This document shows, piece after piece, positions 24,098 to 52,701 of a stretch of DNA of 64,000 nucleotides; within the stretch, counting starts at the first letter, position 1; each line of letters begins with the position of its first letter. The translations under genes and the position numbers were made by a program. The notes below the pieces were generated by a model that worked only from the letters and a program-made list of their open reading frames with translations, was not told the origin of the DNA and did not search any database. Source of the DNA: [Clostridium] asparagiforme DSM 15981 (GTDB lineage Bacteria > Bacillota > Clostridia > Lachnospirales > Lachnospiraceae). The stretch lies in the NCBI GenBank assembly GCA_025149125.1, contig CP102272.1:4588001-4652000 (forward strand), read 5' to 3'.

Positions 24098-25060
24098 ATG
24101 TTTTATAATTATCCAAATGGATCAAATTGCGGAAATACACCTGGAGGCTGCAATCCTGACGAAGCGGCATTTGACGAGTGCAGATGCCCCGGAGCAGGCG
24201 GATGTGCCCCCAGAGGTTGTAATTGTTGTTGTAACCGCGGACCGACCGGTCCCCAAGGGCCCATGGGCCCCAGAGGCTGCCCCGGACCGCAGGGTCCCAT
24301 CGGACCCAGAGGTTATCCCGGCCCTCAGGGCCCAGTGGGCCCAATCGGCCCCAGAGGACCACAGGGTTTTCCGGGAGTCCCCGGCCCTGCGGGTCCCACC
24401 GGGCCAACCGGCGCCAACGGCATGAACGGTGCCATGGGACCCACTGGACCCACGGGCGCTAACGGTATGAACGGCGCTATGGGACCCACTGGGCCCACGG
24501 GTGCCACTGGGCCAACCGGTCCCACCGGACCCACCGGCGCCAACGGCATGAATGGTGCCATGGGACCCACTGGACCTACAGGCGCAACCGGCGCTTCCGG
24601 GACTACCGGACCCACTGGTCCCACGGGTGCCAACGGCCTCAACGGTGCAACCGGACCCACCGGGCCCACTGGCGCTAACGGTGCTGCTGGCGCAACCGGA
24701 CCAACCGGAGCCACTGGTCCCACCGGCGCGAACGGTGCTGCCGGCGCAACCGGTGCGACCGGCGCCACGGGGCCTACCGGTGCTAACGGCGCGGCTGGCG
24801 CGACCGGTGCCACGGGCCCGACCGGGGCTGCCGGAGCCACCGGAGCTAGCGGCGCGACCGGTGCAACCGGACCGACCGGACCCATCGGACCGACCGGCCC
24901 CACTGGCGCCAACGGCACTGCTGGCGCAACCGGCCCCACCGGTGCCACGGGCCCCACTGGCTCCACCGGACCCACTGCCCCGTCAATATATGCACAACAA
25001 GGAAAATGCCGTAACCATGCGGCTTTCAGCACATTACAGACAATTAAACAACCCCTATAA
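24098..25060 (+). CDS. Collagen-like protein 4, promoter-proximal part, interrupted by the ICE
   Basis: Residues 1 to about 293 are host-encoded: [13 protein letters not shown], a Cys-rich segment (GCNCCCNRG), then G-X-Y triplets ([19 protein letters not shown] and similar). At 24974-24977 the ICE begins, and the frame reads 28 element-encoded residues (starting APSIYAQQG) to a stop at 25060. The product would be a headless collagen stalk. The missing C-terminal part lies at 52688-53806 in the compatible frame. RBS and start match genes 2 and 3. Confidence 0.85.
24951..25000. repeat. attL of the ICE
   Basis: The host part ends GGACCC; ACTG (24974-24977) is shared with attR. The element arm TGCCCCGTCAATATATGCAC continues to CAAC at 24998. 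This arm is the inverted counterpart of the arm at 52665-52687, with each arm exactly 23 nt from the central AC. Confidence 0.8.
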
Positions 25061-25065
25061 TTACA

Positions 25066-25114
25066 CCTAAAACGCCGTAGCAAGGTTGGACAAGCCTTGA
25101 TATGGCGTTTTTAA
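25066..25114 (+). terminator. Hairpin terminator inside the ICE left end
   Basis: AAAACGCC pairs with GGCGTTTT across an inner AAGG/CCTT stem, followed by TTTTTAAG. It lies just after the stop of the interrupted collagen frame and may insulate the ICE from collagen gene transcription. Confidence 0.55.
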
Positions 25115-25322
25115 GTGAGTAGGATATGTCGCCGCAGCTTGAAAAGAGTTGCGGTTTTTTTATGCCCGAAAACAGGCGGTAACGTGGAACGTTAGGCGCG
25201 AAAAAGCCCTTATAATACAAGGCTTTTCAGACGCAAAAACGGCAAAGGCATACTGCAATACCAAAACCGCCGAAAACGGCTTTCTATTATTCCACGCAGA
25301 CCGAGAAAGGAAGTGATAAAAA
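25115..25322 (+). promoter_or_regulatory. Leader region of the ICE transfer operon
   Basis: Contains an inverted repeat GAAAAAGCC...GGCTTTTC (25200-25228) that encloses TATAAT (25211-25216), which suggests an operator over a -10 box. The word GTGGAACGTTA occurs at 25184-25194. No gene seen. The next start has RBS AAAGGAAGTG. Confidence 0.4.
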
Positions 25323-26267
25323 ATGGCAGTTTTCCGAGTTGAGAGAAATACGGGCTATACCGTTATGAGCAACCACCACTTGCGCAATAAGGAACTCACC
25401 TTAAAGGCAAAAGGCTTGCTTTCGCAAATGCTGTCTTTGCCCGAAGATTGGGATTATACCCTTGCGGGCTTATCCCATATCAACCGGGAGAAGATCGACG
25501 CAATCCGCGAAGCGGTAAAGGAACTCGAAAAAGCCGGATATATCGTGCGCAGCCGGGAGCGCGACGAAAAGGGACGCTTGCGGGGCGCAGATTACGTCAT
25601 ATACGAGCAGCCGCAGCCGCGAGAGCCGGAAGCAGCTACCAGCGGCGGACAGCCGCCTATATTGGATTTACCTACATTGGAAAATCCAACATTGGATAAT
25701 CCAACGTTGGAAAAACCTACGCAGGAAAAACCTACGTTGGAAAATCCAACGCAATTAAATAAAGATATATCAAGTAAAGAACAATCAATTACTGATCTAT
25801 CAAGTACCCATTCCATTCCTTTCCATTCCCTAAATCCCTTGCCTTATGAGCAGGACGAAGCGGCTACGCCGCCGGAAAGGAAAAGAACGGAAGCGAAAAC
25901 AAACAGTGCAATAGAGATTTATCGGGAAATCATCAAAGAAAACATCGACTATGACATTCTCATTCAAGACCCTAAAATGGATAAAGACCGTTTGGACGAG
26001 ATTGTAGAAATCATGCTGGAAACCGTCTGCACAGCGCGAAAGACAATCCGTATTGCCGGGGACGACTACCCCGCCGAACTGGTGAAATCAAAGTTTATGA
26101 AGCTGAACAGCAGCCATATTGAGTTTGTTTTGGATTGCATGAGGGAGAACACAACCAAAGTGCGCAACATCAAGCAGTATCTAAAAGCGGTGCTGTTCAA
26201 CGCGCCGAGTACCATTGACAGCTACTATACCGCCCTTGTCAATCACGACTTTTACGGCAGCAAATGA
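25323..26267 (+). CDS. ICE helix-turn-helix / replication-initiator-like protein
   Basis: The 314-residue protein has an N-terminal winged helix region (LRNKELTLKAKGLLSQMLSL then INREKIDAIREAVKELEKAGYI). A repetitive linker of LENPTLDNPTLEKPT-type pentamers (residues about 117-145) and a DUF6017-like C-terminal half follow. Proteins of this kind open the transfer operon in Tn1549-like elements and are often called replication initiators. Its role here is inferred from position. RBS AAAGGAAG. Confidence 0.65.
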   Translation: MAVFRVERNTGYTVMSNHHLRNKELTLKAKGLLSQMLSLPEDWDYTLAGLSHINREKIDAIREAVKELEKAGYIVRSRERDEKGRLRGADYVIYEQPQPREPEAATSGGQPPILDLPTLENPTLDNPTLEKPTQEKPTLENPTQLNKDISSKEQSITDLSSTHSIPFHSLNPLPYEQDEAATPPERKRTEAKTNSAIEIYREIIKENIDYDILIQDPKMDKDRLDEIVEIMLETVCTARKTIRIAGDDYPAELVKSKFMKLNSSHIEFVLDCMRENTTKVRNIKQYLKAVLFNAPSTIDSYYTALVNHDFYGSK

Positions 26268-26303
26268 GCATAGCCGCAGTTTACCGGGAAAGGAGTTGAT
26301 ACC

Positions 26304-26777
26304 TTGCAGGAGGAAGTAACCCAAAAAACGATTGCCCTATCCGTCAACGTGGGAAAAGGCGCGGCAAGGCTTACCGAACAGGCGTTACAGAAAGCAATCA
26401 AGAAGTTTTTGGAGCAGAAAAGCAAAGCACCGCATGGGAAACAGACCATGCGGCAGCTTATGAAGCAAAATGCGGGGGTTTCCAACATCGAGATCACCGA
26501 CAGCAATATCAAAGCCTTTGAGAGTACCGCGAAGAAATACAACATAGATTTTTCGCTGAAAAAGGTTAAGGGCGAACAGACCCGTTACCTTGTGTTTTTC
26601 AAAGGCAGGGACGCGGACGTTATGACCGCAGCGTTTCAAGAGTTTTCCGCAAAGAAGCTGAACAGGGATAAAAAGCCCTCTATCCGCAAAGCCCTTGCCG
26701 CAGCAAAGGACAAGGCGAAGCAGCTTAACGCCGCCCGCGACAAGGTAAAGAAAATAGACAGGGGGCGCGAGATATGA
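26304..26777 (+). CDS. PcfB-family conjugation protein
   Basis: The 157-residue basic, soluble protein starts with TTG after AAAGGAG. Sequence features such as VNVGKGAARLTEQALQKAIKKFLEQ and FKGRDADVMTAAFQEF are typical of PcfB proteins, which sit next to VirD4 and are thought to link the relaxosome to the coupling protein. Its stop overlaps the VirD4 start (ATGA). Confidence 0.78.
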   Translation: MQEEVTQKTIALSVNVGKGAARLTEQALQKAIKKFLEQKSKAPHGKQTMRQLMKQNAGVSNIEITDSNIKAFESTAKKYNIDFSLKKVKGEQTRYLVFFKGRDADVMTAAFQEFSAKKLNRDKKPSIRKALAAAKDKAKQLNAARDKVKKIDRGREI

Positions 26778-28558
26778 AGCAGATAAACTACAAAAAGCTG
26801 ATAATCCCGAATATCCCGTATGTGTTCTTTGTCTATCTCTTTGATAAGGTGGGACAGGCGGTGCGGCTTGCCCCCGGCGCGGATATTTCCGAAAAGATAC
26901 TCAATATCACACAGGGATTTTCCGAAGCGTTTTCAAATGCCTTGCCGAGCGTTCACCCGTTGGATTTGCTTATTGGCATTGTCGGCGCGGTGGTTATCCG
27001 TCTGATTGTCTATGTCAAAGGGAAAAACGCGAAGAAATACCGCAAGGGCGCAGAATACGGCAGCGCACGTTGGGGCAACGCCGAAGATATAAAGCCCTAC
27101 ATCGACCCAGATTTTCAGAACAACATCATTTTGACGCAGACCGAACGGCTTACCATGAACAGCCGCCCTAAATCACCGAAATACGCGAGAAATAAAAACG
27201 TCGTGGTGATCGGCGGCAGCGGCAGCGGAAAAACAAGGTTTTTTGTAAAGCCTAATTTAATGCAGCTTCATTCTTCCTACGTCTTGACCGACCCGAAAGG
27301 CACCGTCCTAATCGAGTGCGGAAAGCTGCTGCAACGGGCAGGCTACCGCATTAAGGTACTGAACACGATAAACTTTCGGAAAAGTATGCACTATAACCCC
27401 TTTGTCTATATCCGCAGCGAAAAGGACGTGTTAAAGGTTGTCAATACCCTTATCGTGAATACCAAAGGCGAGGGAGAAAAGAGCGCGGAAGATTTTTGGG
27501 TGAAAGCCGAGAGGTTACTATATTGCGCGTTGATCGGCTACATTTGGTATGAAGCCCCCGCCGAGGAAATGAACTTTATTACCCTGTTGGAACTTATCAA
27601 CGCAAGCGAAGCACGCGAGGACGACGAGGAATACCAAAGCCCCGTTGATCTGCTCTTTGCCGATTTGGAAGAACGCAGCCCCGACCATTTCGCGGTGAAG
27701 CAATATAAAAAATACAAATTGGCGGCGGGCAAAACGGCAAAGTCAATCCTTATTTCTTGCGGTGCGCGTCTTGCCCCTTTTGATATAGAGGAACTCCGGG
27801 AACTCATGTCCTATGATGAATTGGAACTTGATACATTGGGCGACAGGAAAACCGCGCTTTTCCTCATAATGAGCGATACCGACGACACCTTTAATTTTGT
27901 TATCGCTATTTTGCAATCGCAACTTTTCAATTTACTTTGTGATAAAGCGGACGACGAATATAACGGCAAATTGCCTGTTCACGTCCGCTTTTTGCTTGAC
28001 GAGTTTGCCAACATCGGGCAGATACCTCGCTTTGATAAACTAATTGCGACCATTCGCAGCCGGGAAATGTCCGCTTCTATCATTCTGCAATCGCAGAGCC
28101 AGCTAAAAGCCATTTACAAGGACGCGGCAGAAATCATACTTGATAATGCCGACAGCACCTTGTTTTTGGGAGGACGTGGGAAAAATGCAAAGGATATTTC
28201 GGATAACTTGGGACGGGAAACAATCGACAGTTTCAACACTTCCGAAAATCGCGGCACGCAGGTTTCTCATGGACTTACTTATCAAAAATTAGGAAAGGAG
28301 TTGATGACACAGGACGAAATAGCAGTTATGGACGGTGGGAAATGTATTTTGCAGCTACGCGGTGTACGTCCCTTTTTAAGCGACAAATACGATATAACGA
28401 AACACCCGAACTACAAATACCTTTCCGACTTCGACAAGAAAAACGCTTTTGACGTTGAACGGTATATGTCTACCCGTCCGGCAATCGTAAAGCCCGATGA
28501 AGCCTTTGACATATACGAAATAGATTTGTCCGACGAGGACGCAGCCGCCGAGGAATAA
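26774..28558 (+). CDS. virD4: VirD4-type conjugative coupling ATPase
   Basis: The 594-residue protein has two N-terminal membrane segments, Walker A (GGSGSGKTRF, near residue 146), the block SYVLTDPKGT and Walker B (FLLDEFANIG, near 405). It belongs to the TraG/VirD4 family, which hands the relaxase-DNA complex to the mating channel. The acidic tail (DLSDEDAAAEE) is common in Gram-positive ICE homologues. Confidence 0.9.
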   Translation: MKQINYKKLIIPNIPYVFFVYLFDKVGQAVRLAPGADISEKILNITQGFSEAFSNALPSVHPLDLLIGIVGAVVIRLIVYVKGKNAKKYRKGAEYGSARWGNAEDIKPYIDPDFQNNIILTQTERLTMNSRPKSPKYARNKNVVVIGGSGSGKTRFFVKPNLMQLHSSYVLTDPKGTVLIECGKLLQRAGYRIKVLNTINFRKSMHYNPFVYIRSEKDVLKVVNTLIVNTKGEGEKSAEDFWVKAERLLYCALIGYIWYEAPAEEMNFITLLELINASEAREDDEEYQSPVDLLFADLEERSPDHFAVKQYKKYKLAAGKTAKSILISCGARLAPFDIEELRELMSYDELELDTLGDRKTALFLIMSDTDDTFNFVIAILQSQLFNLLCDKADDEYNGKLPVHVRFLLDEFANIGQIPRFDKLIATIRSREMSASIILQSQSQLKAIYKDAAEIILDNADSTLFLGGRGKNAKDISDNLGRETIDSFNTSENRGTQVSHGLTYQKLGKELMTQDEIAVMDGGKCILQLRGVRPFLSDKYDITKHPNYKYLSDFDKKNAFDVERYMSTRPAIVKPDEAFDIYEIDLSDEDAAAEE

Positions 28559-30685: not shown

Positions 30686-31078
30686 ATGGCGTATGTAACC
30701 GTCCCAAAGGACTTAACAAAAATCAAAAGCAAGGTAATGTTCAACCTTACGAAACGACAGCTAATTTGTTTCAGCGCGGCGGTGGCAATCGGACTGCCGC
30801 TGTTCTTTTTGGTAAAAGGCAGCGTTGGAACGAGCGCAGCGGCATTGTGCATGGTGCTTGCCATGCTGCCTATGTTTTTGCTTGCCATGTACGAGAAAAA
30901 CGGGCAACCGCTGGAAGTGATTATTCGGCAATTTGTGGAAGTGAAGTTTCTTCGCCCCAAAGAGCGACCTTATCAGACCAACAATTTTTATGCCGCCCTT
31001 GCGCGGCAAGAGCAATTAGATAAGGAGGTACGGGCGATTGTCAAAGGAAAAGAAAAACACCCAAAACGAAAAGCGTAA
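30686..31078 (+). CDS. PrgI-family conjugation protein
   Basis: The 130-residue protein starts MAYVTVPKDLTKIKSKVMFNLT, followed by two membrane helices and KNGQPLEVIIRQFVE. This is the PrgI/VirB3-like partner always found next to VirB4 in Gram-positive conjugation systems. RBS AAAGGAGG. The end overlaps the VirB4 gene by 41 nt. Confidence 0.85.
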   Translation: MAYVTVPKDLTKIKSKVMFNLTKRQLICFSAAVAIGLPLFFLVKGSVGTSAAALCMVLAMLPMFLLAMYEKNGQPLEVIIRQFVEVKFLRPKERPYQTNNFYAALARQEQLDKEVRAIVKGKEKHPKRKA

Positions 31079-33434
31079 ACTTTCCCGACAGGAAAGAAAA
31101 CAGATAGATACCCTTATCCGACAGGCAAAGGGCGACAGGAAGCCCCATACGGCGCAGGACAGCATACCGTTTGAGCGAATGTATAAGGACGGGATTTGCC
31201 GCCTTGCAAACGGGCGGTATTCCAAGTGCATTGAGTTTGAGGACATCAACTATCAGCTTGCGCAGCCGGACGACAAAACCGCCATTTTTGAAGCCCTTTG
31301 CGATATGTATAACTCGTTCGACGCTTCTATCGGCGTGCAGCTTTCCCTAATCAGCCGCCATGCGAACAAGGACGATTTCAAGAACAGTATCACGATTGCG
31401 CCGCAGAATGACGACTTCGACAGTATCAGAGCAGAATACACCGAAATGCTTAGGACGCAGCTTGAACGCGGAAACAACGGGCTTATCAAAACCAAGTTTC
31501 TCACCTTTACCGTTGAAGCAAAGGACATTAGATCGGCGCGGGCGCGTCTTGCCCGCATTGAAACGGACACCCTTAACCATTTTAAGGTGATCGGCGCAGC
31601 GGCGCGGGTATTGGACGGGAAACAGCGTCTTGAAGTGCTGCATGGGATTTTCCACCCGGACGGGGAACGCTTTAACTTTGCGTGGGAATGGCTACCCGCA
31701 AGCGGGCTTTCCGTCAAAGACTTTATCGCCCCGTCCTCTTTCCGTTTTGGCGACGGGCGAATGTTTCAAATGGGCGGCAAGTTCGGCGCGGTTTCCTTTT
31801 TGCAGATCGTCGCGCCGGAACTCTCCGACCGTATGCTTGCCGACTTCATGGACGCGGAAAACGGGATTATCGTCAATCTGCACATTCAGAGTATCGACCA
31901 CAACGAAGCAATCAAGACGATTAAGCGCAAGATCACCGACCTTGACCGCATGAAGATTGAAGAACAAAAGAAAGCAATCCGCAGCGGTTATGACATGGAT
32001 ATTATTCCGTCCGACCTTGCCACCTACGGCGGGGAAGCAAAAAACCTACTCCGCGATTTGCAGAGCCGCAACGAAAGAATGTTTCTGCTTACGCTGCTTG
32101 TCTTAAACCTTGCAGATACCAAGCAGAAATTGGATAACGAAGTGTTCGGGGCGGCGGCAATCGCACAGAAATACAACTGCATTTTGACCCGTCTTGACTA
32201 CCGGCAGGAACAGGGGCTTATGTCCTCTATCCCGTTGGGGGATAACCTTATCCATATCCAGCGCGGCTTGACGACCAGCAGCACCGCCGTTTTCGTTCCC
32301 TTTACGGTGCAAGAGCTGTTCCAAAGCGGCGAAGCATTGTATTACGGCTTAAATGCCCTTTCCAACAACATGATTTTGTGCGACCGAAAGAAGCTGAAAA
32401 ACCCCAACGGCTTGATACTCGGCACACCGGGCAGCGGCAAAAGTTTTTCTGCAAAACGTGAAATCACAAACGCTTTTCTCATTACGGCAGATGATATTAT
32501 CATTTGCGACCCCGAAGCCGAATATTACCCCCTTGTCGGACGTTTGAAAGGACAGGTTATCAAGGTATCGCAGAACAGCACGCAGTACATTAACCCTATG
32601 GATATAAACCTCAATTACAGCGAGGGCGACACGCCCATAGCCTTAAAGAGCGATTTTATCCTTTCCTTTTGTGAGTTGATTATGGGCGGTAAAAACGGGC
32701 TGGAAGCTGTTGAAAAGACCTTGATTGACCGCGCCGTTATCAGCGTGTACCGCAACTACCTTGCCGACCCGAAGCCGGAGAATATGCCGATTTTGGGCGA
32801 CCTCTACGACGAGATCAAGAAGCAGCCGGAAAAGGAAGCGCAGCGTATCGCGGCGGCATTGGAACTCTATGTAAACGGCAGCTTGAACATTTTTAACCAC
32901 AGGACAAACGTTGACATTCATAATCGCCTTGTCTGCTTTGATATTAAGGAACTCGGTACACAGCTTAAAAAAGTCGGTATGCTTATCGTCCAAGACCAAG
33001 TATGGAACAGAGTAACGGTAAACCGCAGCGAGGGCAAGGCGACGCGGTATTACATCGACGAGTTTCATTTGCTCTTGAAAGAGGAACAGACCGCCGCCTA
33101 TTCCGTCGAGATTTGGAAGCGTTTTAGGAAGTGGGGCGGTATTCCGACAGGTATCACCCAAAACGTGAAAGATTTGTTGTCGTCCCGCGAGGTGGAGAAC
33201 ATCTTTGAAAACAGTGATTTTGTGTATATGCTCAACCAAGCCCAGGGCGACCGGGAAATCCTTGCCAAGCAGCTTAACATTTCACAGCAGCAAATGACCT
33301 ATGTAACCCATTCCGAAGCGGGCGAGGGACTTATCTTCTATGGCAACGTGATTTTGCCCTTTATTGACCGTTTCCCAAAAGATACGGAACTCTACCGCGT
33401 GATGACGACCAAGCCCGGCGAGGTGTCAGCATGA
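31038..33434 (+). CDS. virB4: VirB4-like conjugation ATPase
   Basis: The 798-residue protein has a TTG start after AAGGAGG. The N-terminal region is typical of the CagE/TrbE/VirB4 family. The ATPase domain has Walker A (LGTPGSGKSFSAK, near residue 462) and Walker B (YYIDEFHLLL, near 670). It powers assembly of the mating channel. Its stop overlaps the methyltransferase start. Confidence 0.9.
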   Translation: MSKEKKNTQNEKRKLSRQERKQIDTLIRQAKGDRKPHTAQDSIPFERMYKDGICRLANGRYSKCIEFEDINYQLAQPDDKTAIFEALCDMYNSFDASIGVQLSLISRHANKDDFKNSITIAPQNDDFDSIRAEYTEMLRTQLERGNNGLIKTKFLTFTVEAKDIRSARARLARIETDTLNHFKVIGAAARVLDGKQRLEVLHGIFHPDGERFNFAWEWLPASGLSVKDFIAPSSFRFGDGRMFQMGGKFGAVSFLQIVAPELSDRMLADFMDAENGIIVNLHIQSIDHNEAIKTIKRKITDLDRMKIEEQKKAIRSGYDMDIIPSDLATYGGEAKNLLRDLQSRNERMFLLTLLVLNLADTKQKLDNEVFGAAAIAQKYNCILTRLDYRQEQGLMSSIPLGDNLIHIQRGLTTSSTAVFVPFTVQELFQSGEALYYGLNALSNNMILCDRKKLKNPNGLILGTPGSGKSFSAKREITNAFLITADDIIICDPEAEYYPLVGRLKGQVIKVSQNSTQYINPMDINLNYSEGDTPIALKSDFILSFCELIMGGKNGLEAVEKTLIDRAVISVYRNYLADPKPENMPILGDLYDEIKKQPEKEAQRIAAALELYVNGSLNIFNHRTNVDIHNRLVCFDIKELGTQLKKVGMLIVQDQVWNRVTVNRSEGKATRYYIDEFHLLLKEEQTAAYSVEIWKRFRKWGGIPTGITQNVKDLLSSREVENIFENSDFVYMLNQAQGDREILAKQLNISQQQMTYVTHSEAGEGLIFYGNVILPFIDRFPKDTELYRVMTTKPGEVSA

Positions 33435-34387
33435 AGATAGAAACGGATAAAATCTATTGCGGCGACAGCTTGCAGGTGCTTCAAACCTTGCCGGATAACT
33501 GTATGGATTGTTGCGTAACGTCCCCGCCCTACTATGCTTTGCGCGATTACGGCACAGACGGGCAGATCGGACGGGAAGCAACGCCGGAGGAATATGTTTC
33601 CCGCATTACAGCGGTTTTCCATGAGGTAAAGCGGGTGCTTACGCCGGAGGGTACTTGTTGGCTGAATATCGCGGACACTTATTGCGGCACAGGCAGCAAA
33701 GCCGACCACCAAGACCCGAAATATCCCAAAGGCAGGAACGGGCAGCAAGTGGCGGTAAACCACCGCGCCCCCGGCTGCAAGCCGAAAGACCTAATCGGTA
33801 TTCCGTGGCTTGTAGCCCTTGCCTTGCGGGGCGACGGTTGGTATTTGCGCAGTTCTATCATTTGGCACAAGGGAAACGCCATGCCGGAAAGCACGCGGGA
33901 CAGACCGACGCGCTGCTATGAATATGTGTTTCTGCTTACCAAGTCGAAGAAATATTACTACGATTGGCAAGCAGTAGCCGAGCCGATAGCCCCCACAACG
34001 GCGGTACGGCTGAAAAGCGGAGTTGGGAAAGGCAACAAATATGCCGCTACCGTTCCGGGGCAAAACCAGCCGCAGAAAATCAACCGTCCCCGCAGGAAAG
34101 GCGCATACACCGACGAAATGATTTCCCCCGTCCGCAGCCGCCGCAACGTTTGGCAGATCAACACAGCTTCCTATCGCGGCGGGCATTTTGCAGCGTTCCC
34201 GCCCAAACTTGCGGAAACGTGCATTTTGGCGGGCTGTCCTGTCGGCGGGATTGTGCTTGACCCGTTTTTAGGCAGCGGCACGACCGCAGCGGCGGCAAAA
34301 AGCCTTTCCCGCCGCTATGTGGGTATAGAGATCAACCCCGAATACTGCACCCTTGCAAAACAGCGTATTGGAGGTGATGAACATTGA
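33431..34387 (+). CDS. Orphan DNA methyltransferase (N4-C/N6-A type)
   Basis: The 318-residue enzyme has the catalytic motif TSPPYY near residue 30 and the SAM-binding motif DPFLGSGTTAAAAK near 277. This order (IV before I) marks beta-class amino-methyltransferases. SPPY favours N4-cytosine methylation, but N6-adenine is possible. There is no restriction enzyme nearby. It probably protects the element's DNA on entering a new host. Confidence 0.82.
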   Translation: MKIETDKIYCGDSLQVLQTLPDNCMDCCVTSPPYYALRDYGTDGQIGREATPEEYVSRITAVFHEVKRVLTPEGTCWLNIADTYCGTGSKADHQDPKYPKGRNGQQVAVNHRAPGCKPKDLIGIPWLVALALRGDGWYLRSSIIWHKGNAMPESTRDRPTRCYEYVFLLTKSKKYYYDWQAVAEPIAPTTAVRLKSGVGKGNKYAATVPGQNQPQKINRPRRKGAYTDEMISPVRSRRNVWQINTASYRGGHFAAFPPKLAETCILAGCPVGGIVLDPFLGSGTTAAAAKSLSRRYVGIEINPEYCTLAKQRIGGDEH

Positions 34388-36354
34388 GCAAGGAATTAAA
34401 AGCCCCCGACAAGGTAACGCAGAAAATGACCCGCGACGGGGCGGTTGCGGAAAACCTTACGACGGGCGAAACAACGAGTATCAGCGAAAGACCGCCGGAG
34501 GAAAACTATTCAGCCCCCGTAGCGGGAGCAGCGGAAAAAGCCACCCAACGTATTGGCACAGAGGTTAGCCGCCACTTTGAAAAGGGCGCGGAGAAAAAGA
34601 CCCTTGACGCAGCACAGCTTAAAACCCATACGTCCCGCTTGCAGTTTTCCGAAGCGGAACGGGCAACGCCGGACCTGCAAAAGGCAATCAAAAAATCCGA
34701 TACGGCGGCTGACCGTTTAGACAAAGCGCGGGCAGCTATCCCCAAACAGACCAAAATCACAAAAGAGCGCGTTTTTGACGAAGCCAAAGGCAAAGCAAAG
34801 ACGCGCCTTGCTTTTGAAAAAACGGATAAGCCCCCAAACGGCAAGTTGCGTCATAACCCGTTATCCCGTCCGGCACAGGAATTGGACGCCGCCGTACATG
34901 GAAAAATCTATGAGGTGGAGAAAGAAAACGTCGGTGTGGAAAGCGGACACAGGATAGAACTTGTGGGCGAGAAAGCGGGCGGCATGACGACGCGGGCAGT
35001 AAAACGCGGCATACGCAGCCATAAGCTGAAACCTTACCGGGCGGCGGCAGCAGCCGAGAAAAAGGCAGCAAAGGCAAACGCCGATTTCCTCTACCAAAAG
35101 GCGCTGCATGATAACCCCGCCCTTGCGCACTCCAACCCGATTTCCCGTTTTTGGCAAAAACAGCGCATTAAAAAGCAGTATGCAAAGGCGTTGAAAACGG
35201 GCGGCAAGGTGAAAAAGACCGCCGAAGCCACCGCAAAGGCGGCGAAGAAAACGGCGCAGGAAACCAAACGGGCGACGTTCTTTGTCGTCCGGCATTGGAA
35301 AGGCTGTTTGATTGTGGGCGGGATTGCCTTTATCGTGCTTCTGTTTTTCGGCGGCTTGTCCTCTTGTTCCCTGTTCGGCGGCAACAGCGGCAGCGGCTTG
35401 ATTGCGTCGTCCTATCTCTCCGAGGACGCGGATATTACAGGCGCAGAAAGCGCGTATGTCGCTATGGAAGCCGAGTTACAGGATATGCTGGATAACATCG
35501 AAAGCGAATACCCCGGCTATGACGAATACCGGGTAACGGCTGACGAGATCGAGCATGACCCGTATGTGCTAATCTCTATCCTCTCCGCTTGGCATGAGGG
35601 CGTGTTTACTCTCGATGAAGCGCAAAGCACCCTTGAAATGCTCTTTGATAAACAGTATATCTTGACGGTTACGGAGGAAGTCGAGGTACGCTACCGCACC
35701 GAAACGCGGACGGACAGCGAGGGCAACGAATACGACGTTGAAGTAGCCTATAACTATTACATTCTCAATGTGGATTTGGAAAACTTCAACCTCTCCCATG
35801 TTCCCGTTTACATTATGGGCGAGGAACAGCTATCCATGTACGCTATGTATATGTCGTCGCTTGGGAACAGACCCGACCTTTTCCCGCAATCCGGCTATAT
35901 TTCAAAATACTATGAAAACCCGCCCGCAGATTACGAAGTCCCCGCCGCGCTGCTCAATTCCGATGAAAAGTTTGCGCGGCTCATTGAGGAAGCGGAAAAG
36001 TATGTCGGTTTTCCTTATGTGTGGGGCGGCAGCAGCCCGGAAACCTCTTTTGATTGCAGCGGTTTTGTTAGCTATGTGCTGACGAACAGCGGCTTATACA
36101 ATACAGGCAGACTTGGGGCGCAGGGGCTTTACAACATTTCAACCCGCGTTTCCAACCCGCAGCCGGGGGATTTGGTTTTCTTTACGGGTACATATGACAC
36201 ACCGGGGGTATCTCATGTGGGTATCTACGTTGGCGAGGACGGGGACGGAAGCCCCGTCATGCTGCATTGTGGCGACCCGATACAATACGCAAAACTTGAT
36301 ACAAGCTATTGGCAATCCCATTTTTACGCCTATGGGCGGCTACATTACAACTGA
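34384..36354 (+). CDS. CD1108-type ICE protein with NlpC/P60 peptidase domain
   Basis: The 656-residue protein starts at TTG after GGAGGTGA. The basic, Ala/Lys-rich cytoplasmic half is followed by one membrane helix (LIVGGIAFIVLLFFGG, near 310). The extracellular half ends in an NlpC/P60 domain with Cys in FDCSGF (near 557), His in SHVGIY (near 610) and LHCGD. It would cut peptidoglycan to let the mating channel through the wall. Confidence 0.85.
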   Translation: MSKELKAPDKVTQKMTRDGAVAENLTTGETTSISERPPEENYSAPVAGAAEKATQRIGTEVSRHFEKGAEKKTLDAAQLKTHTSRLQFSEAERATPDLQKAIKKSDTAADRLDKARAAIPKQTKITKERVFDEAKGKAKTRLAFEKTDKPPNGKLRHNPLSRPAQELDAAVHGKIYEVEKENVGVESGHRIELVGEKAGGMTTRAVKRGIRSHKLKPYRAAAAAEKKAAKANADFLYQKALHDNPALAHSNPISRFWQKQRIKKQYAKALKTGGKVKKTAEATAKAAKKTAQETKRATFFVVRHWKGCLIVGGIAFIVLLFFGGLSSCSLFGGNSGSGLIASSYLSEDADITGAESAYVAMEAELQDMLDNIESEYPGYDEYRVTADEIEHDPYVLISILSAWHEGVFTLDEAQSTLEMLFDKQYILTVTEEVEVRYRTETRTDSEGNEYDVEVAYNYYILNVDLENFNLSHVPVYIMGEEQLSMYAMYMSSLGNRPDLFPQSGYISKYYENPPADYEVPAALLNSDEKFARLIEEAEKYVGFPYVWGGSSPETSFDCSGFVSYVLTNSGLYNTGRLGAQGLYNISTRVSNPQPGDLVFFTGTYDTPGVSHVGIYVGEDGDGSPVMLHCGDPIQYAKLDTSYWQSHFYAYGRLHYN

Positions 36355-36642: not shown

Positions 36643-37363
36643 AAAACTGTTCCGCAGCGTTACCGCTTTGCTTGCCGCCCTTGTACTCATGGGCGGCTTT
36701 TCTGTTACCGCTTTTGCGGGCGGCGGTGATGTGAGCGACGAGCCGCCTACCCCCGTAACCGAAACCGAGCCGGAAGAAACGACGGGCGGCTATGAGCCGC
36801 AGCCCTTAACGCCGGAGGGCAACATGAGCCTTGTGGACGACATAACGGGCGAAGCGTCCGGCGATAAGCAGTTTATTACCGTCGTTACGAAAAACGGAAA
36901 CTATTTTTACATCATCATTGACCGCGCCGAGGACGGAGAAAACACCGTCCATTTCCTCAATCAAGTTGATGAAAAAGACCTTTTGCAGCTTATGGAGGAC
37001 GAACAGACCGAAGCCCCCGCTTGTAGCTGTACTGAAAAATGCGTTGCCGGAAGCGTCAACACCGATTGCCCCGTTTGCAGCGTCAATATGAGCGAGTGCG
37101 CGGGCAAGGAAGCCGAGCCGGAGCCGGAAGAAACCGAGCAGCCGGAGCCGGAGGAAGATAAAGGCGGCGGCATGGGCGGTGCTATTCTGCTTGTCGTGCT
37201 GCTTCTTGCCGCAGTGGGCGGCGGCGCGTTCTATTACTTTAAGATTATGAAGCCCAAAAAGGACGCGGCAAAAGGCAGCAGCAACCTTGACGATCTCGAT
37301 TTTGACGAGGACGACGAGGACGAGGAAGAATTAGAAACCGAGCAGGAGGACGAGGAAGTATGA
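36632..37363 (+). CDS. DUF4366-family secreted ICE membrane protein
   Basis: The 243-residue protein has a signal peptide (KLFRSVTALLAALVLMGG...FAGG) and an extracellular domain with FITVVTKNGNYFYIIIDRA. A Cys-rich stretch (CSCTEKCVAG...CPVCSVNMSEC), a C-terminal membrane helix and a very acidic tail (DEDDEDEEELETEQ) follow. The start ATG 36632 lies in the previous gene's end with an AGGAGG RBS. It belongs to the cell-surface part of the mating apparatus. Molecular role unknown. Confidence 0.75.
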   Translation: MKHKKLFRSVTALLAALVLMGGFSVTAFAGGGDVSDEPPTPVTETEPEETTGGYEPQPLTPEGNMSLVDDITGEASGDKQFITVVTKNGNYFYIIIDRAEDGENTVHFLNQVDEKDLLQLMEDEQTEAPACSCTEKCVAGSVNTDCPVCSVNMSECAGKEAEPEPEETEQPEPEEDKGGGMGGAILLVVLLLAAVGGGAFYYFKIMKPKKDAAKGSSNLDDLDFDEDDEDEEELETEQEDEEV

Positions 37364-45209: not shown

Positions 45210-46547
45210 TTACCCCCGTTCCTGTTCTTTCGCCCTGCTTTGGGACGGATATAGAATACTGTCAACGTTCTTTTTGACAACGCTGTATTCCTGCATTTGC
45301 TTCTTGGCTTGCCGATAATCTTCATACAATTTGGTTTTCCTGTCGTTTAAGCTGCTATACTCCTTGCGCAGCGCGGCGAGATCGGGCAGCTTCTTTATCT
45401 GCATTTCCTTTAATGCCCTTGCCGCAGCTTCAAACAGGATAATTTCGCTTTCATGCCCCCGCAGATACTTTTCCTTGTCCCGCGACTTTTTGTATTCCTC
45501 GTAAATCGGTTTTAATTGTCGGTATGTGGTTGTGTGCTTGATAAGCAGCGACAAATCAGACATACGCTGCTCTACGTCCTTAACCGCCCTTGCCGCCGCG
45601 TCATGGGCGGTCATAATATCCGCGATTTTGCTTTCAAGGTCGCTGTAATATTCAATCTTGTTTTCGGTCAAGAAGTTCATGCTTTTTGCAGCCTGTTTCA
45701 GATTATGGATTTTCGCCCACCGTTCATAGCCCGCCGACTGTTGCGCTTTGATACTGTTTTCAAGATCGACGACAAGCCGGATTTTCTTATCTTCCCGCAG
45801 CGGTTTTGACTTGGCGATATATACGCCCTTGATACGTTCCTTTATCGCTTCTTCCGTATAGGCCGCGCCGAGCGTCTTTGTGCGGGTAAACCGTTCCTGT
45901 CCGGCAGCGCGAAAGGAAATGTATTTGCCCTGTTTGATTTCATACCCCATTTCCTGCAAGCGGCGCAGCAGTTCGTCAAAATCTTTCACTTGGGGAATGA
46001 GAGTATCTATCGCCGTTTTCAGCTTTGCTTTGTAGCTTGTCCCTTGCTTTTCGGCGGTGTATTCCGCATAGCTTTTTCCCTTGTCCTGTCCCGGTACGAC
46101 GACGGATAGCCCATGCTCTTTACATATCCTGTCGCTGGTGCGCCGGATAAAGTGATAGCTTTGCTTGTTGGAATGGTACTTTTTGTAGTCAACGAAGCTA
46201 ACCGCGTTGAAAATCAAGTGATTATGCAGATGGTCTTTATCGACGTGAGTTGTCAAAACAAACTCATACTTGCCGCCTAATACCGCCCCGGCAAGTTCCA
46301 TGCCGATTTTGTGCGCTTCTTCCGGTGTGGTTTCTCCCACCGCAAAGGATTGTATCAAGTGCCGCCCTAAATGTGTGCCGCGATCTCCGGCAGCTTCCCG
46401 CGTCCATGCAAACTCAATATCGGCGGTTTCCAGCCCGCAGCCGAAAGAGGACGCAAGCAGCTTCCCGTCTGTCTTTTCGGGATTTAAGATATAGTCTATC
46501 GCAGCCTTTAAGGTTGATTTAATAGGGTGCGTCTTTGTAACCGCCAT
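45210..46547 (-). CDS. Relaxase / mobilization nuclease
   Basis: The 445-residue protein has the relaxase motif HVDKDHLHNHLIFN near residue 105 (HxDxDH-type His triad), preceded by an N-terminal Tyr (AIDYILNPEKT) likely to attack DNA. The C-terminal half is helical and coiled. It nicks oriT and is carried into the recipient. It overlaps mobC by 40 nt, which is normal for mob pairs. Confidence 0.88.
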   Translation of the reverse strand: MAVTKTHPIKSTLKAAIDYILNPEKTDGKLLASSFGCGLETADIEFAWTREAAGDRGTHLGRHLIQSFAVGETTPEEAHKIGMELAGAVLGGKYEFVLTTHVDKDHLHNHLIFNAVSFVDYKKYHSNKQSYHFIRRTSDRICKEHGLSVVVPGQDKGKSYAEYTAEKQGTSYKAKLKTAIDTLIPQVKDFDELLRRLQEMGYEIKQGKYISFRAAGQERFTRTKTLGAAYTEEAIKERIKGVYIAKSKPLREDKKIRLVVDLENSIKAQQSAGYERWAKIHNLKQAAKSMNFLTENKIEYYSDLESKIADIMTAHDAAARAVKDVEQRMSDLSLLIKHTTTYRQLKPIYEEYKKSRDKEKYLRGHESEIILFEAAARALKEMQIKKLPDLAALRKEYSSLNDRKTKLYEDYRQAKKQMQEYSVVKKNVDSILYPSQSRAKEQERG

Positions 46548-46837
46548 ATCTCGTCCACCGCCTTTTTAATGTCCTCTATATCCTGCCTGTAAACCGTCCC
46601 CGTCGCATTGGCGCGTTTTGCAATTTGGTTGATGTTCCGGCTCACCGCTTGCAGTTCCCGGATATATGCTTTTGTGTCGCTTCGGTCAACGACAAGAATA
46701 TACCCGTCTATCGCCATTTTACGGAAGTATGCCCCATACTGCTTTATGGGAAGCTGCTTCATCTTCTCGTCGATCAGCCGCTTTTCTTCTTCCGTAACGT
46801 AAAACTTCATCTGTATATTTCTCTTTCGGTTTTCCAT
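46508..46837 (-). CDS. mobC: MobC-type relaxosome accessory protein
   Basis: The 109-residue protein starts MENRKRNIQMKFYVTEEEKRLI with a ribbon-helix-helix-like N-terminus and ends in the conserved NINQIAKRAN block. It binds near oriT and helps the relaxase. It lies directly downstream of the dyad-rich repeat copy B, a plausible oriT. Confidence 0.85.
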   Translation of the reverse strand: MENRKRNIQMKFYVTEEEKRLIDEKMKQLPIKQYGAYFRKMAIDGYILVVDRSDTKAYIRELQAVSRNINQIAKRANATGTVYRQDIEDIKKAVDEIWRLQRRTLLNQP

Positions 46838-47979: not shown

Positions 47980-47995
47980 AAGAAAGGATATAAAA

Positions 47996-48979
47996 ATGAA
48001 ACGTTTACCTAAATATACGCCTGCGGAAGTACGGAATGATCCATACGGATTTACTTACAAAGAAATGTCGGAAGTTATTGGCGAGAATGAAGCAAAAGCC
48101 TTATATGAAGAATTATATAAGCAATTACCACGCAAAAAAAATCTATCAATGTTGGTAAAAAATATTTGCAAAAGCAGTGATACTGAAAAGTATGTTTACG
48201 AACTGAAAGACAACAAATACATTGAAACGGTTTTTATCAAGCGGCGAGATGGTGGAACTGTTTGCGTGAGCACACAAGTCGGTTGTCCTGTTGGTTGTAT
48301 TTTTTGTGAGTCCGGGCGAAATGGCTTTGTTCGTAATCTAACATCGTCAGAAATCGTACAACAGATTATATTGTTGCGTCGAAAAGTAAACCGTATCGTT
48401 TTTATGGGTATGGGAGAGCCTTTATTCAATTATGACAACTTGATAAAAGCAATCCATATTCTCCGAGATAGATATGGGCTCAACTTTCCAACCGACGGCA
48501 TTACCATATCAACAGTTGGTCCGGTCGATCAATTAAAAAAATTGCGCGAGGAACATCTTAAAATTCAGTTGACAATATCTTTACACGCAGCAACACAATC
48601 TGCAAGAAATCGTATTATTCCTCACATGCGCATATATGCTATTGAAGATGTTGTTAAGCAAGCCTTATCCTATTCTGAAAGGCATAATCGCAAAATTGTC
48701 TTTGCGTATTTGCTTTTACCGGGTATAAATGACCGGCCCTCAGATGTAAGACAACTTGCAAAATGGTTTCGGGGCAAAAAAGTTATGATTAACGTGTTAC
48801 AATACAACCCAACAAGCAATTCAAGAATTAAAGCACCACAGAAACGGGAAATAGTTGCATTCAAACATCAATTAGAGCAAGCAGGACTTGAAGTTACTAT
48901 GAGAGTTTCTCATGGCAGAGAGATTAACGCGGCTTGTGGACAGTTAGCTAACACATATAATAAATTCAAAAAAAAATGA
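47996..48979 (+). CDS. Radical SAM 23S rRNA methyltransferase of the RlmN/Cfr family (possible resistance gene)
   Basis: The 327-residue protein has the radical SAM cluster CPVGCIFC (near residue 97) and GMGEPLFN. It also has SLHAA, LLPGIND and the C-terminal ACGQL Cys used for methyl transfer (near 313). RlmN methylates C2 and Cfr methylates C8 of A2503 in 23S rRNA; Cfr gives resistance to phenicols, lincosamides, oxazolidinones, pleuromutilins and streptogramin A. Being accessory, AT-rich and behind a leader-peptide attenuator points to a Cfr-like role, but C2 versus C8 specificity cannot be told here. Confidence 0.78.
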   Translation: MKRLPKYTPAEVRNDPYGFTYKEMSEVIGENEAKALYEELYKQLPRKKNLSMLVKNICKSSDTEKYVYELKDNKYIETVFIKRRDGGTVCVSTQVGCPVGCIFCESGRNGFVRNLTSSEIVQQIILLRRKVNRIVFMGMGEPLFNYDNLIKAIHILRDRYGLNFPTDGITISTVGPVDQLKKLREEHLKIQLTISLHAATQSARNRIIPHMRIYAIEDVVKQALSYSERHNRKIVFAYLLLPGINDRPSDVRQLAKWFRGKKVMINVLQYNPTSNSRIKAPQKREIVAFKHQLEQAGLEVTMRVSHGREINAACGQLANTYNKFKKK

Positions 48980-49006
48980 TTAAAAGTGCCAGACGCATAG
49001 ACGCAG

Positions 49007-49055
49007 AGCCGATAACGCATTAGGTCAAAAAACCTATGTGTTATCGGCTTTTTTA
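49007..49055 (+). terminator. Terminator of the cargo operon
   Basis: A long stem, AGCCGATAACGCATTAGGT with ACCTATGTGTTATCGGCT, is followed by TTTTTT. Confidence 0.85.
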
Positions 49056-50116: not shown

Positions 50117-50121
50117 TCTTT

Positions 50122-50171
50122 TAGCCCATGCGGGGAGCGTGTCCCCTTTCCACGCTTCCCGTTATGGGCTA
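50122..50171 (+). terminator. Long hairpin after the HTH gene
   Basis: TAGCCCAT...ATGGGCTA with an inner GGGGAGCGTG/CACGCTTCCC stem, followed by TTTGTC. Could end the sigma/HTH transcript. Confidence 0.55.
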
Positions 50172-50596
50172 TTTGTCGTTCCGCAAAAGCATATCCGCTG
50201 TTGATGTGCTGTTACAGGCCGACAAAGCCTATTGTTCTTTGACAAAGAAAGCGGCCTTTGGTGCGCAGCATAGCAGGCAAACGGGTACATTCCGTTTGTA
50301 TCGAGCCGGGCGGCGGGTACGCCATGATAGCTTTTCCCCTACGGGGAAAAGCCGAGCGAGAACTACCGCGCCGTAAAACAAGTTTAGCAGCTTGTGGGCG
50401 ACGACATACAAACGGCTACAATGATACTCCCGCGTTGAACACCCTCAAAGTATTGCGCGGCGCACCCATAAGCATGGGCCGGGGTGAAACTCCCGTGAGG
50501 TTGCAGCTAACAACCGCCCGTTTTTGCCTTATTTCTCATATCGTACAAGCCGGAGCGCATATTCTGTACTATGCCGCTAACCGGGAGGGAAAGAAG
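50172..50596 (+). ncRNA. Candidate structured RNA region upstream of the integrase block
   Basis: About 420 nt without a convincing gene. It holds several tight hairpins: AAACGG/CCGTTT (50280-50297), GCTTTTCCCC/GGGGAAAAGC (50330-50352), GGGTGAAACTCCC near 50482, and a closing CCGCCCGTTTTTGCC. The density of hairpins and the absence of an RBS-led ORF suggest a structured transcript or long leader. Not matched to a known family. Confidence 0.35.
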
Positions 50597-50851
50597 ATGA
50601 TTACCAAGTTACAACTTCAACAAATGAGAAATGTTGATATTACACAGGTTGACCGCAGCACTTTGGTTGATATTAGCAATATCCATATTGACAGTTCTTT
50701 GCCAGCAGCAAAGAAAATGCAAAGCTACTTGGAGCAGATCGTCAATCCATATTGTTTTCTTTGCGGCGATACGCCCGTAAGAATACGGTTTGTCGCAGAG
50801 GATAGAACGCTAAAGCAATCATTGTGTGATTACTTTTTAAGTCTGAAATAA
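50597..50851 (+). CDS. Small ICE protein (DUF6870-like)
   Basis: The 84-residue protein starts MITKLQLQQMRNVDITQVDR with RBS GGGAGGGAAAG, and has a Cys pair in YCFLCGDT. An in-frame extension upstream has no RBS. It resembles the DUF6870-type ORF that precedes the recombinase in related ICEs. Function unknown, perhaps an excision or regulatory factor. Confidence 0.6.
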   Translation: MITKLQLQQMRNVDITQVDRSTLVDISNIHIDSSLPAAKKMQSYLEQIVNPYCFLCGDTPVRIRFVAEDRTLKQSLCDYFLSLK

Positions 50852-50909
50852 CCGCCGACTTTCCCTTAACCCTACGGGTAAAGACCTTGTGATTACGGGT
50901 CGAAAATGG

Positions 50910-50930
50910 TATAATTAACTCGTAATTATA
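50910..50930 (+). promoter_or_regulatory. Dyad over the recombinase promoter
   Basis: Perfect inverted repeat TATAATTA-ACTCG-TAATTATA ends seven bases before the AAAGGAGG RBS. Its left half includes a TATAAT -10 box, so it is a candidate operator for the recombinase gene. Confidence 0.5.
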
Positions 50931-50947
50931 GGGGGAAAGGAGGTATA

Positions 50948-52630
50948 ATGCCCCGCATACGCAAAGACAAAATGGCACGCAGTTATGCAGAGCCGTTTTG
51001 GAAAATTGGGCTATACATTCGACTATCCAGAGAGGACGACAACGAGGACGAAAGCGAGAGTGTTATCAACCAAGAAAAGATACTCCGCGACTTTGTAGAC
51101 AGCTATTTTGAGCCGGGAACCTATGTAATTGTAGACGTGTTTGCCGACGACGGATTGACAGGCACCGACACAGCGCGACCAAACTTCAAACGGCTTGAGG
51201 GCTGCATTGTCCGAAAAGAAGTAAACTGCATGATTATCAAATCCCTTGCACGCGGTTTCCGCAACCTTGCCGACCAGCAAAAGTTTTTAGAGGAGTTCAT
51301 ACCCATTAACGGTGCAAGGTTTATTTGCACAGGCACACCATTTATTGACACTTACGCAAATCCCCATTCTGCAAGCGGCCTTGAAGTACCTATTAGGGGA
51401 ATGTTCAACGAGCAGTTTGCCGCGACCACTTCCGAAGAAATCCGCAAAACATTCAAGATGAAACGGGAGCGCGGCGAGTTCATAGGCGCGTTTGCCCCTT
51501 ATGGCTACAAGAAAGACCCAAACGACAAAAACAGCTTGATTGTAGATGAAGAAGCAGCGGAAGTTGTCAAAAGCATTTACCATTGGTTTGTCAATGAGGG
51601 GTACAGTAAAATGGGGATTGCAAAGCGGCTTAACCAAATGGGAGAGCCGAACCCCGAAGCCTATAAGAAGAAAAAAGGCTTTAAGTATAACAACCCTAAT
51701 TCAGACAAAAACGATGGTTTGTGGTCTGCCAGCACGATTGCAAGGATATTGCAGAATGAAGTTTATACGGGCGTAATGGTGCAAGGCCGTAATCGCGTAA
51801 TAAGCTACAAAGTACACAAGCAGATCAACGTCCCCGAAGAAGAATGGTTTGTCGTCCCCAACACACACGAAGCGATTATTGACAGGGAAACATTCGAGAA
51901 AGCGCAAGCCCTACATAAGCGCGACACAAGGACAGCCCCCGGCAAACAGGAAGTCTATCTCATGTCCGGCTTTGTCCGTTGCGCGGATTGCAAAAAGGCC
52001 ATGCGGCGCAAAACCGCCCGCGATATTGCCTACTACTCTTGCCGCAGCTACACCGATAAGAAGATTTGCAGCAAACATTCTATCCGGCAAGACAAGTTGG
52101 AAAACGCGGTATTGGCAGCGTTGCAAATGCAAATTGCCCTTGTAGATCGGCTTGCAGAAGAAATTGAACGGATTAACAACGCGCCTGTTATCAACCGGGA
52201 AAGCAAAAGATTATCCTATTCCTTGAAACAGGCAGAGAAGCAGCTAAAACAGTACAATGACGCTTCCGACAGCTTGTACCTTGATTGGAAAAGCGGTGAG
52301 ATTACCAAAGAGGAATACCGCCGCTTGAAAGGCAAGATTGCAGAACAGATACAACAGCTTGAAGCGAACATCTCCTATCTGAAAGAGGAAATGCAGGTAA
52401 TGGCTGATGGTATCGGAACCGATGACCCGTATCTAACCGCCTTTCTGAAACACAAAAACATTCAGAGCCTTAACCGCGGGATTATGGTTGAACTCGTAAA
52501 AGCGGTTTGGGTGCATGAGAACGGGGAAATAACGGTTGACTTCAATTTTGCCGACGAGTACCAGCGAATTATTGATTACATTGAGAATAACCACAACGTT
52601 ATCCAGGTGATTGAGAGCAAGGCAATCTAA
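50948..52630 (+). CDS. Large serine recombinase (TndX/TnpX-like integrase)
   Basis: The 560-residue protein has an N-terminal resolvase domain with the catalytic Ser in LYIRLSRED (near residue 27). A recombinase domain follows (GYSKMGIAKRLNQMG; NEVYTGVMVQGR), then a zinc ribbon (CADCKKAM...CRSYTDKKICSKH) and a coiled coil. It catalyses attP x attB integration and, with a helper, excision. It lies 58 nt inside attR, whose arms are its likely binding sites. Confidence 0.92.
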   Translation: MPRIRKDKMARSYAEPFWKIGLYIRLSREDDNEDESESVINQEKILRDFVDSYFEPGTYVIVDVFADDGLTGTDTARPNFKRLEGCIVRKEVNCMIIKSLARGFRNLADQQKFLEEFIPINGARFICTGTPFIDTYANPHSASGLEVPIRGMFNEQFAATTSEEIRKTFKMKRERGEFIGAFAPYGYKKDPNDKNSLIVDEEAAEVVKSIYHWFVNEGYSKMGIAKRLNQMGEPNPEAYKKKKGFKYNNPNSDKNDGLWSASTIARILQNEVYTGVMVQGRNRVISYKVHKQINVPEEEWFVVPNTHEAIIDRETFEKAQALHKRDTRTAPGKQEVYLMSGFVRCADCKKAMRRKTARDIAYYSCRSYTDKKICSKHSIRQDKLENAVLAALQMQIALVDRLAEEIERINNAPVINRESKRLSYSLKQAEKQLKQYNDASDSLYLDWKSGEITKEEYRRLKGKIAEQIQQLEANISYLKEEMQVMADGIGTDDPYLTAFLKHKNIQSLNRGIMVELVKAVWVHENGEITVDFNFADEYQRIIDYIENNHNVIQVIESKAI

Positions 52631-52659
52631 CGGCTTGCCTACTCAACACAAAGGAAAAT

Positions 52660-52701
52660 CTAATGTTGTGCATAAATAAACGGCTCTACTGGTCCCACTG
52701 G
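52660..52701. repeat. attR of the ICE
   Basis: The element arm GTTGTGCATAAATAAACGG (52665-52683) plus CTCT leads to ACTG (52688-52691), then host GTCCCAC. The arm mirrors attL. Host bases rejoin collagen gene 4 in frame. Confidence 0.8.

Follow-up and report, generated by a model that had tools for sequence, protein, structure and literature searches.

Why does a conjugative element lie inside a protein-coding repeat, at an exact codon position, and does its departure serve the host gene? The question is raised by a stretch of 64,000 nucleotides of [Clostridium] asparagiforme DSM 15981 (contig CP102272.1, positions 4,588,001 to 4,652,000; hereafter the window), in which a collagen-like gene is split by an integrative and conjugative element (ICE). 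A first-pass annotation of this DNA had offered two readings: excision timed by sporulation or, simply, exploitation of a repeat-encoded target. The second is strongly supported by the whole family of related recombinases (junctions, controls and tree). With high confidence, the recombinase is assigned to a clade that exploits a target encoded by a repeat, its usual attB being collagen DNA that codes for Gly-Pro/Ala-Thr-Gly.

Boundaries and crossover core

The element and its junctions are placed as follows.
24976..52689, + strand: ICE, 27,714 bp.
24974..24998, + strand: left junction; core AC + TGCC + CCGTCAATATATGCACAAC; host GGACCC precedes AC.
52665..52689, + strand: right junction; GTTGTGCATAAATAAACGG + CTCT + core AC; host TGGTCC follows AC.

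The ACTG previously described as common to both ends is present at 24974-24977 and 52688-52691. Both arms lie 23 nt from AC, as had been proposed (distance read at both junctions), and the arms of attP form the expected inverted repeat, with 16 of 19 positions matching. A 4-nt ACTG core is rejected: across elements, only AC is common (junction table). In all 21 elements read at both ends, the core bases are the same left and right; agreement drops to 8 elements one base after the core and to 6 one base before it, so that the overlap spans 2 bp (AC). The extra shared TG is a coincidence in this ICE (element TGCC, host TGG). A 2-bp overlap is what a large serine recombinase (LSR) leaves behind, and the same 2-bp crossover core in attP and attB, as for LSRs, was found in all 21 two-ended elements.

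The attP core varies among the 34 elements (AC, 22; GT, 11; GC, 1; e.g. L045/L065, L048/L060, L022-L026), yet left equals right; the core can thus change, the ends staying in agreement. The two-ended sample includes elements with inward-facing ends on one contig (11), with ends on different contigs (9) and with outward-facing ends (1, L026/L070). In the last of these, on a contig of 6,921 bases, a right and a left end face outward, and the roughly 3.7 kb of host DNA between them is edged on either side by collagen repeats, as would suit two copies or a circular arrangement. A tRNA target was considered and rejected: no tRNA or tmRNA is found by ARAGORN in the window.

The interrupted gene and its frame

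24098..24975, + strand: 5' portion of the split collagen-like gene, from the ATG to core AC; the core codon is preceded by 292 codons; Pfam Collagen, E 3e-39.
52688..53806, + strand: 3' part of the same gene; 372 codons and stop, in the same codon phase.
53399-53806, + strand: C-terminal domain of the gene, BclA_C-like; PF18573 BclA_C, E 1.2e-5, 25.6 bits.

The frame was determined by coordinate arithmetic (24098 to 24974, 292 codons; 52688 to the stop ending at 53806, 372 codons and stop). Precise interruption, with in-frame restoration to about 664 codons, had been claimed from the first reading and is borne out: both halves put ACT on the core, and 292 + 372 gives 664 aa. The reading frame of the 5' part continues into the ICE, giving a 28-aa tail and an open reading frame (ORF) that extends to 25060 (320 aa). 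This tail of 28 residues is the left end of the ICE (24976-25060) read in the collagen frame; the core being fixed on a Thr codon, insertions in the sense direction should receive much the same tail. While the ICE is integrated, the gene could make only a truncated stalk (292 codons and the 28-aa tail) lacking the C-terminal head; exact excision, which would need a recombination directionality factor (RDF), would restore the gene.

Relatives in which the gene naturally ends at 24977 would have spoken against an interruption. Leader, repeats and tail are instead found in one continuous ORF, with a similar leader and tail, in three genus-mates: 623 aa ([Clostridium] citroniae genome), 606 aa (G011) and 422 aa (G003). 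In this comparison, the short stretches of G005, G006, G015 and G016 gave no usable ORF, and G013 was not included. The C-terminal domain has matches in 9 genomes among the 16 other genus members searched. A PDB sequence search put a chain with the name FliK first (E 1.5e-4); the exosporium chains BxpB, ExsF and 7r1m are weaker (E 0.13-0.22). In the genus-mate G012 (L126 4259-9518), a related collagen gene is split elsewhere by a remnant of 3.6 kb (ends AATAAGAAAAC / GTTTTCTTATT). The remnant carries a DUF6870 gene and a broken recombinase that belongs to a different lineage and has about 47% identity to the window recombinase. More than one recombinase lineage hits collagen genes.

Integration sites of related elements

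The search of the genome collection for related recombinases gave 39 loci. A right end was recognised in 33 of them, which with the window makes 34; the loci with no recognisable right end are L035, L039, L042, L043, L044 and L047, and in L039 collagen repeats directly follow the recombinase. Of these 34 right junctions, 28 read as collagen Gly-X-Y repeats in phase with the core. By a strict count (at least five contiguous in-phase Gly codons across the junction), 23 of 34 qualify. Read in the sense of the collagen gene, the core in the 23 strict cases is AC (21), GC (1; L045, Ala) or GT (1; L025, Val), and it forms the first two bases of a Thr codon in 21 of them. The collagen assignment of L033 and L040 is firm from longer flanks; that of L029, L032 and L034 rests on two or three triplets, L032 having a head domain after them.

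Relative to the collagen gene, the ICE is inserted in either direction. All 34 right flanks, in collagen and other genes, are distinct, and the insertions are therefore separate. Recombinases of identical sequence occur in different genera and genes, so that the insertions are horizontal as well as separate. The hosts with collagen sites belong to at least ten named genera and include Flavonifractor, Pseudoflavonifractor, Hungatella, Diplocloster, Mediterraneibacter, Agathobaculum and Eisenbergiella, as well as Oscillibacter, Neglectibacter, Clostridium fessum and [Clostridium] citroniae.

Controls and intermediate relatives were taken from a search of 392 genomes of the order, in which recombinases were collected down to about 30% identity; the 20 distant ones (30-37%) serve as control. 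A Gly-X-Y run of at least five within 500 bp downstream is found in none of the 20 control LSRs (L115 and L117 have a run of three directly downstream, and L107 has a run of five elsewhere in the 2-kb flank). The same run is found in 10 of the 25 relatives at 41-58% identity for which downstream sequence was present: L039, L040, L041, L079, L080, L082, L086, L088, L094 and L099. In a tree of 76 rows, the label "collagen" needs 10 changes; 500 shuffles of the labels need 24 on average, and none of them needs as few as 10. The window clade (34 rows, support 97/95) holds 28 collagen rows; a group of 23 rows across the midpoint root holds 0. The labels (collagen or not) were set by hand. Near-copies inflate the clustering of labels in the tree; the relatives at 41-58% identity are independent of near-copies.

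Two loci are described for themselves. At L088 (G307; recombinase of 46% identity), long collagen repeats lie on both sides within a stretch of 3.8 kb. At L046/L053 (G034), a decayed copy lies in a collagen gene, with about 1.8 kb between its ends and only recombinase residues 413-560 matched.

Scans of viral contigs with the left arm and with the right-arm pattern gave 0 matches each. Relatives of the recombinase occur in 438 phage records and 312 plasmid records, all of them below 60% identity; those collections thus yielded no close copies.

Codon pattern of the target

The sequence GGN-CCN-ACN-GGN-CC can be read as GGNCC-N-AC-N-GGNCC: codons for Gly-Pro-Thr-Gly-Pro form a dyad whatever their third bases, which makes collagen genes arrays of attB sites. 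The most conserved half-site positions are G at -6 (20/21), C at -2 (20/21), G at +2 (33/34) and C at +6 (31/34). The attB dyad pointed out in the first-pass annotation is real but weak and periodic, with 6 of 12 positions matching around the core of the window. Over 17 two-ended collagen sites, the dyad score has a mean of 5.6/12; it is the same after a slide of 9 bases (one repeat) and is 2.2-4.5 at slides of 1-8. The plain dyad score does not single out the core from the position one repeat away.

A target-like pattern, GGNSCNACNGGNSC, has 266 matches in the genome, of which 205 are in the 64-kb window (1% of the genome), all of them in the pieces of its four collagen genes; the host thus offers about 200 near-equal sites. 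The backwards control pattern has 527 matches in the genome and 4 in the window. The genome-wide count of the motif is under that of its control (266 vs 527), and only the share in the window separates them.

The proposed mechanism is as follows. The enzyme would cross over on AC, the first two bases of a Thr codon. The sequence GGN-[C/G]CN-ACN-GGN-[C/G]C is a dyad in its own right, each half-site being supplied by the genetic code whichever synonymous codon is used. Any spore-former with a collagen gene would have dozens of landing sites of nearly equal quality in it. In the window, the ICE would have taken one of about 200 sites of this kind; the cluster that it entered, made up of four collagen genes and a glycosyltransferase gene, is probably for the spore surface.

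Sites outside collagen genes and the generic-dyad alternative

Several points weigh against a collagen-coding target. Six of the 34 junctions are not collagen repeats (L012, L013, L020, L036, L048, L049); the enzyme thus tolerates other sites. One of these, L013, fits GGNCCN-AC-NGGNCC outside any collagen gene. By number of in-phase Gly codons, L036 (4), L013 (3) and L049 (2) score like the weakest collagen rows; they were set apart by their translations, which are not collagen-like. Recombinases of identical sequence occur in both the collagen and the non-collagen groups. The loci were found with the window recombinase as query, so near relatives are over-represented, and 15 of the 25 relatives at 41-58% identity are without a collagen run just downstream. 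The motif GGNSCNACNGGNSC was chosen after the junctions had been seen. Only 11 of the 21 two-ended elements have inward-facing ends on one contig; no excised circle and no same-species empty site was seen in the collection, which has one genome per species. As to the gene, its BclA_C match (25.6 bits) is under the curated cut-off of 38.

One alternative is a generic preference for GC-rich dyads: the enzyme would be a multi-targeting LSR, and collagen genes would be hit for the many GC-rich dyads that they contain. Multi-targeting LSRs are known (PMC10083194), six of the 34 sites are of another kind, and the dyad at the core is no better than that one repeat away. Set against this are the phase of insertion, which is nearly fixed (the Thr, Ala and Val codons of the strict cases given above), the collagen habit common to a deep clade of the tree, and the domain content of the enzyme: no DUF4368, the domain tied to the multi-targeting clade in PMC10083194, is among the Pfam hits of the window recombinase at E 0.001. 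A generic preference is given a minority chance of being the better description. It differs mainly in emphasis from the best explanation, a clade that usually targets collagen-coding repeats.

The collagen gene cluster and its promoter-like sequences

10145..11965, + strand: collagen-like gene 1; 68 forward target-like motifs; SigK-like sequence at 10037, diverged and outside the 28-base pattern.
17875..18960, + strand: glycosyltransferase family 2 with TPR; SigK-like sequence at 17798.
19723..21510, + strand: collagen-like gene 2; 51 forward target-like motifs; SigK-like sequence at 19526.
22162..23334, + strand: collagen-like gene 3; 26 forward target-like motifs; SigK-like sequence at 21917.
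23855..23882, + strand: AC-N17-CATATGGTA, the SigK-like promoter sequence that precedes the ATG of the interrupted gene by 215 bases.

The pattern AC-N17-CATANNNTA lies upstream of all four collagen genes and of the glycosyltransferase gene; these are its only 5 matches in the 64 kb, with 0 in the ICE. Taken alone, it is a weak test, since 200 local shuffles gave 1.4 matches on average and as many as 5. At no more than 3 mismatches, the whole genome holds 4 matches to a 28-base form, all in the collagen cluster, and 0 to its backwards control. The 28-base form is stronger promoter evidence than AC-N17-CATANNNTA; tandem duplication of upstream regions could contribute to it. Conservation of the promoter is opposed by one negative result: the sequence was not found up to 350 bp upstream of seven collagen genes of genus-mates (two of their starts being set 3 bases early).

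The promoter sequence of the cluster fits the SigK consensus. In C. difficile, a SigK promoter is given as -35 AC and -10 CATATAAT, and bclA1-3 are under positive SigK control (PMC3789822); a glycosyltransferase of BclA3 is named SgtA (PMC7157674). The interrupted gene had been suggested to be a SigK-type exosporium gene. The promoter part of that claim is reinforced by the SigK-like sequence common to its neighbours; a place on the spore surface is likely, with a BclA_C match below cut-off. A promoter sequence common to the collagen genes and the glycosyltransferase gene makes a role at the spore surface likely, and the cluster, as judged from its sequence, likely serves that surface.

The recombinase and its neighbourhood

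50948..52630, + strand: large serine recombinase, 560 aa; PF00239 Resolvase, PF07508 Recombinase and PF13408 Zn_ribbon_recom, all above cut-off.
50887..50915, + strand: TTGTGA-17-TATAAT, a sigma-70-type promoter-like site preceding the recombinase; it matches the consensus at 10 of 12 bases.
50597..50851, + strand: DUF6870 protein, 84 aa; frequent neighbour of the recombinase and candidate RDF.
50530-50597: block with two CATA boxes ahead of the DUF6870 gene; conserved even in relatives whose DUF6870 protein has as little as about 51% identity.

The recombinase gene ends 34 bp before the right arm, and its product is presumably active. Sigma-70-type sites of this quality number 2 in the 600-base region, against an average of 1.0 in shuffles. 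Of the 81 loci that have 600 bases or more before the recombinase, 49 show a DUF6870 gene directly upstream of it, 5 of the 20 controls among them (a few loci were counted twice, and row L038 took a second, unrelated recombinase). Its presence in controls marks it as a partner of a wider group of LSRs and not of the collagen habit; the DUF6870 protein may be the RDF. The CATA-box block is possibly a promoter or operator. SigE-like sites were also sought: 7 weak matches occur in the window, 6 of them inside the ICE, and, being as unassignable as the CATA-box block, they were not used as evidence.

Timing of excision

By analogy with skin and SP-beta, the ICE might be excised in the mother cell during sporulation, so that the spore would bear full-length collagen protein and the forespore would keep the ICE. 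This reading is considered unlikely. Timing of this kind would require sporulation control of either the recombinase or an RDF. In its favour, the target has a SigK-like promoter sequence and could be a SigK gene like bclA1-3 of C. difficile (PMC3789822). SP-beta, an active mobile element, provides a precedent, its small accessory protein (sprB) being made in sporulation and its recombinase (sprA) in vegetative cells (PMC4191935); the present layout, in which a recombinase with a sigma-70-type promoter-like site adjoins an 84-aa neighbour gene, would allow similar control. On the other side, the scan of the window gave 0 SigK-like sequences inside the ICE, and the conserved block before the DUF6870 gene is not assignable to any sigma factor. 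Insertion sites vary among hosts, some being outside collagen genes. Collagen genes also keep remnants whose recombinase is truncated or broken (L046; L126, of another lineage), so the gene need not be restored in these cases. Excision after any exact, conservative site-specific insertion restores the frame automatically, and a restored frame is therefore no evidence of timing. The sporulation-timed excision initially suggested is thus not supported so far, given the sigma-70-type site of the recombinase, the ICE devoid of SigK-like sites and the varied sites across genera.

A wider form, in which collagen-like spore genes are a codon-encoded docking array for a clade of conjugative elements across Clostridia, with excision coupled to sporulation through DUF6870 as RDF and the ICE kept by the forespore, is likewise held to be improbable. 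If it were true, the collagen filaments on spores would be full-length or headless, depending on the state of the ICE.

An assembly artefact or chance (halves that are not one gene, or a misassembled join) is practically negligible: nothing in its favour was found (estimated assembly contamination, 5.45%), and it is opposed by a genome in a single contig of 6.35 Mb, by left ends of the same kind in 20 of the 29 other genomes searched and by the leader and tail found in one ORF in three genus-mates.

Gene content of the ICE

26774..28558, + strand: VirD4-like coupling protein, CD1115 family; 562 bits, cut-off 250.
31038..33434, + strand: VirB4-like ATPase, CD1110 family; 1131 bits, cut-off 325.
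34384..36354, + strand: CD1108-family mobile element protein with a cell-wall hydrolase-like C-terminus.
37360..39435, + strand: DNA topoisomerase III.
45210..46547, - strand: relaxase (MobA/VirD2 type); adjoins a NikA/MobC-like protein, 46508-46837.
47996..48979, + strand: cargo radical-SAM RlmN/Cfr-like protein; RlmN 277.6 bits (cut-off 290) and Cfr 199.5 bits (cut-off 530), below both.

CD1107-like, PrgI and TrbL_2 proteins are also encoded. A type IV secretion and relaxase module of the CD1107-CD1115 type is present, and the early identification of the element as an ICE holds, the genes of a conjugation module having been found. On its predicted proteins, the element is a CTn/Tn1549-like ICE.

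Comparison with known systems

An integrase usually targets DNA that stays constant because it belongs to one conserved gene, e.g. a tRNA gene. Here, the constant sequence would be the codon pattern of a protein repeat. Such a codon dyad would explain how one recombinase finds sites in different genera and many per genome. The spread of ICEs among gut bacteria would be linked to variation of the spore surface, and a natural family of recombinases defined by a motif is offered. The removal in sporulation of a conjugative element, beyond a prophage or a gin-type element, becomes directly testable.

An ICE with a large serine recombinase is of a known kind; the class of target would be new. No report of collagen-coding DNA as an integrase target was found in the open-licence literature searched, including passages of PMC10083194, PMC13188886, PMC4191935, PMC10747680 and PMC5595907; in the main text of PMC10083194, the word "collagen" occurs 0 times.

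CTn/Tn1549-like ICEs of Clostridia: the window element has the same VirB4 CD1110, VirD4 CD1115, CD1108, CD1107-like, PrgI and TrbL_2 proteins, topoisomerase III and relaxase with MobC/NikA. It differs from them in a recombinase that targets collagen-coding repeats, no such target having been found in the literature searched.

BclA-type exosporium glycoproteins (C. difficile bclA1-3): Gly-X-Thr repeats, a BclA_C-like tail, a SigK-like promoter sequence and a glycosyltransferase in the cluster are shared. Unlike in these proteins, the BclA_C match of the window gene is below the curated cut-off, and its location on the spore is putative.

Gene-intervening elements of sporulation (skin in sigK, SP-beta in spsM, gin in gerE, vfbin in spoVFB, yin in yabG): a serine recombinase gene by one end and the exact, in-frame interruption of a gene that is probably sporulation-specific are common features. 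Unlike in these elements, timed excision is only a possibility for the window ICE; near-identical recombinases of its type are found in different genera and genes, and its target is a repeat array, not one unique site.

Multi-targeting LSRs (Durrant et al. 2022, PMC10083194): closely related recombinases with many target genes and a short shared motif are found in both. The window recombinase differs in that DUF4368, common in the clade of Durrant et al., was not found in it, and in that the motif of the window clade is the codon pattern of one protein repeat.

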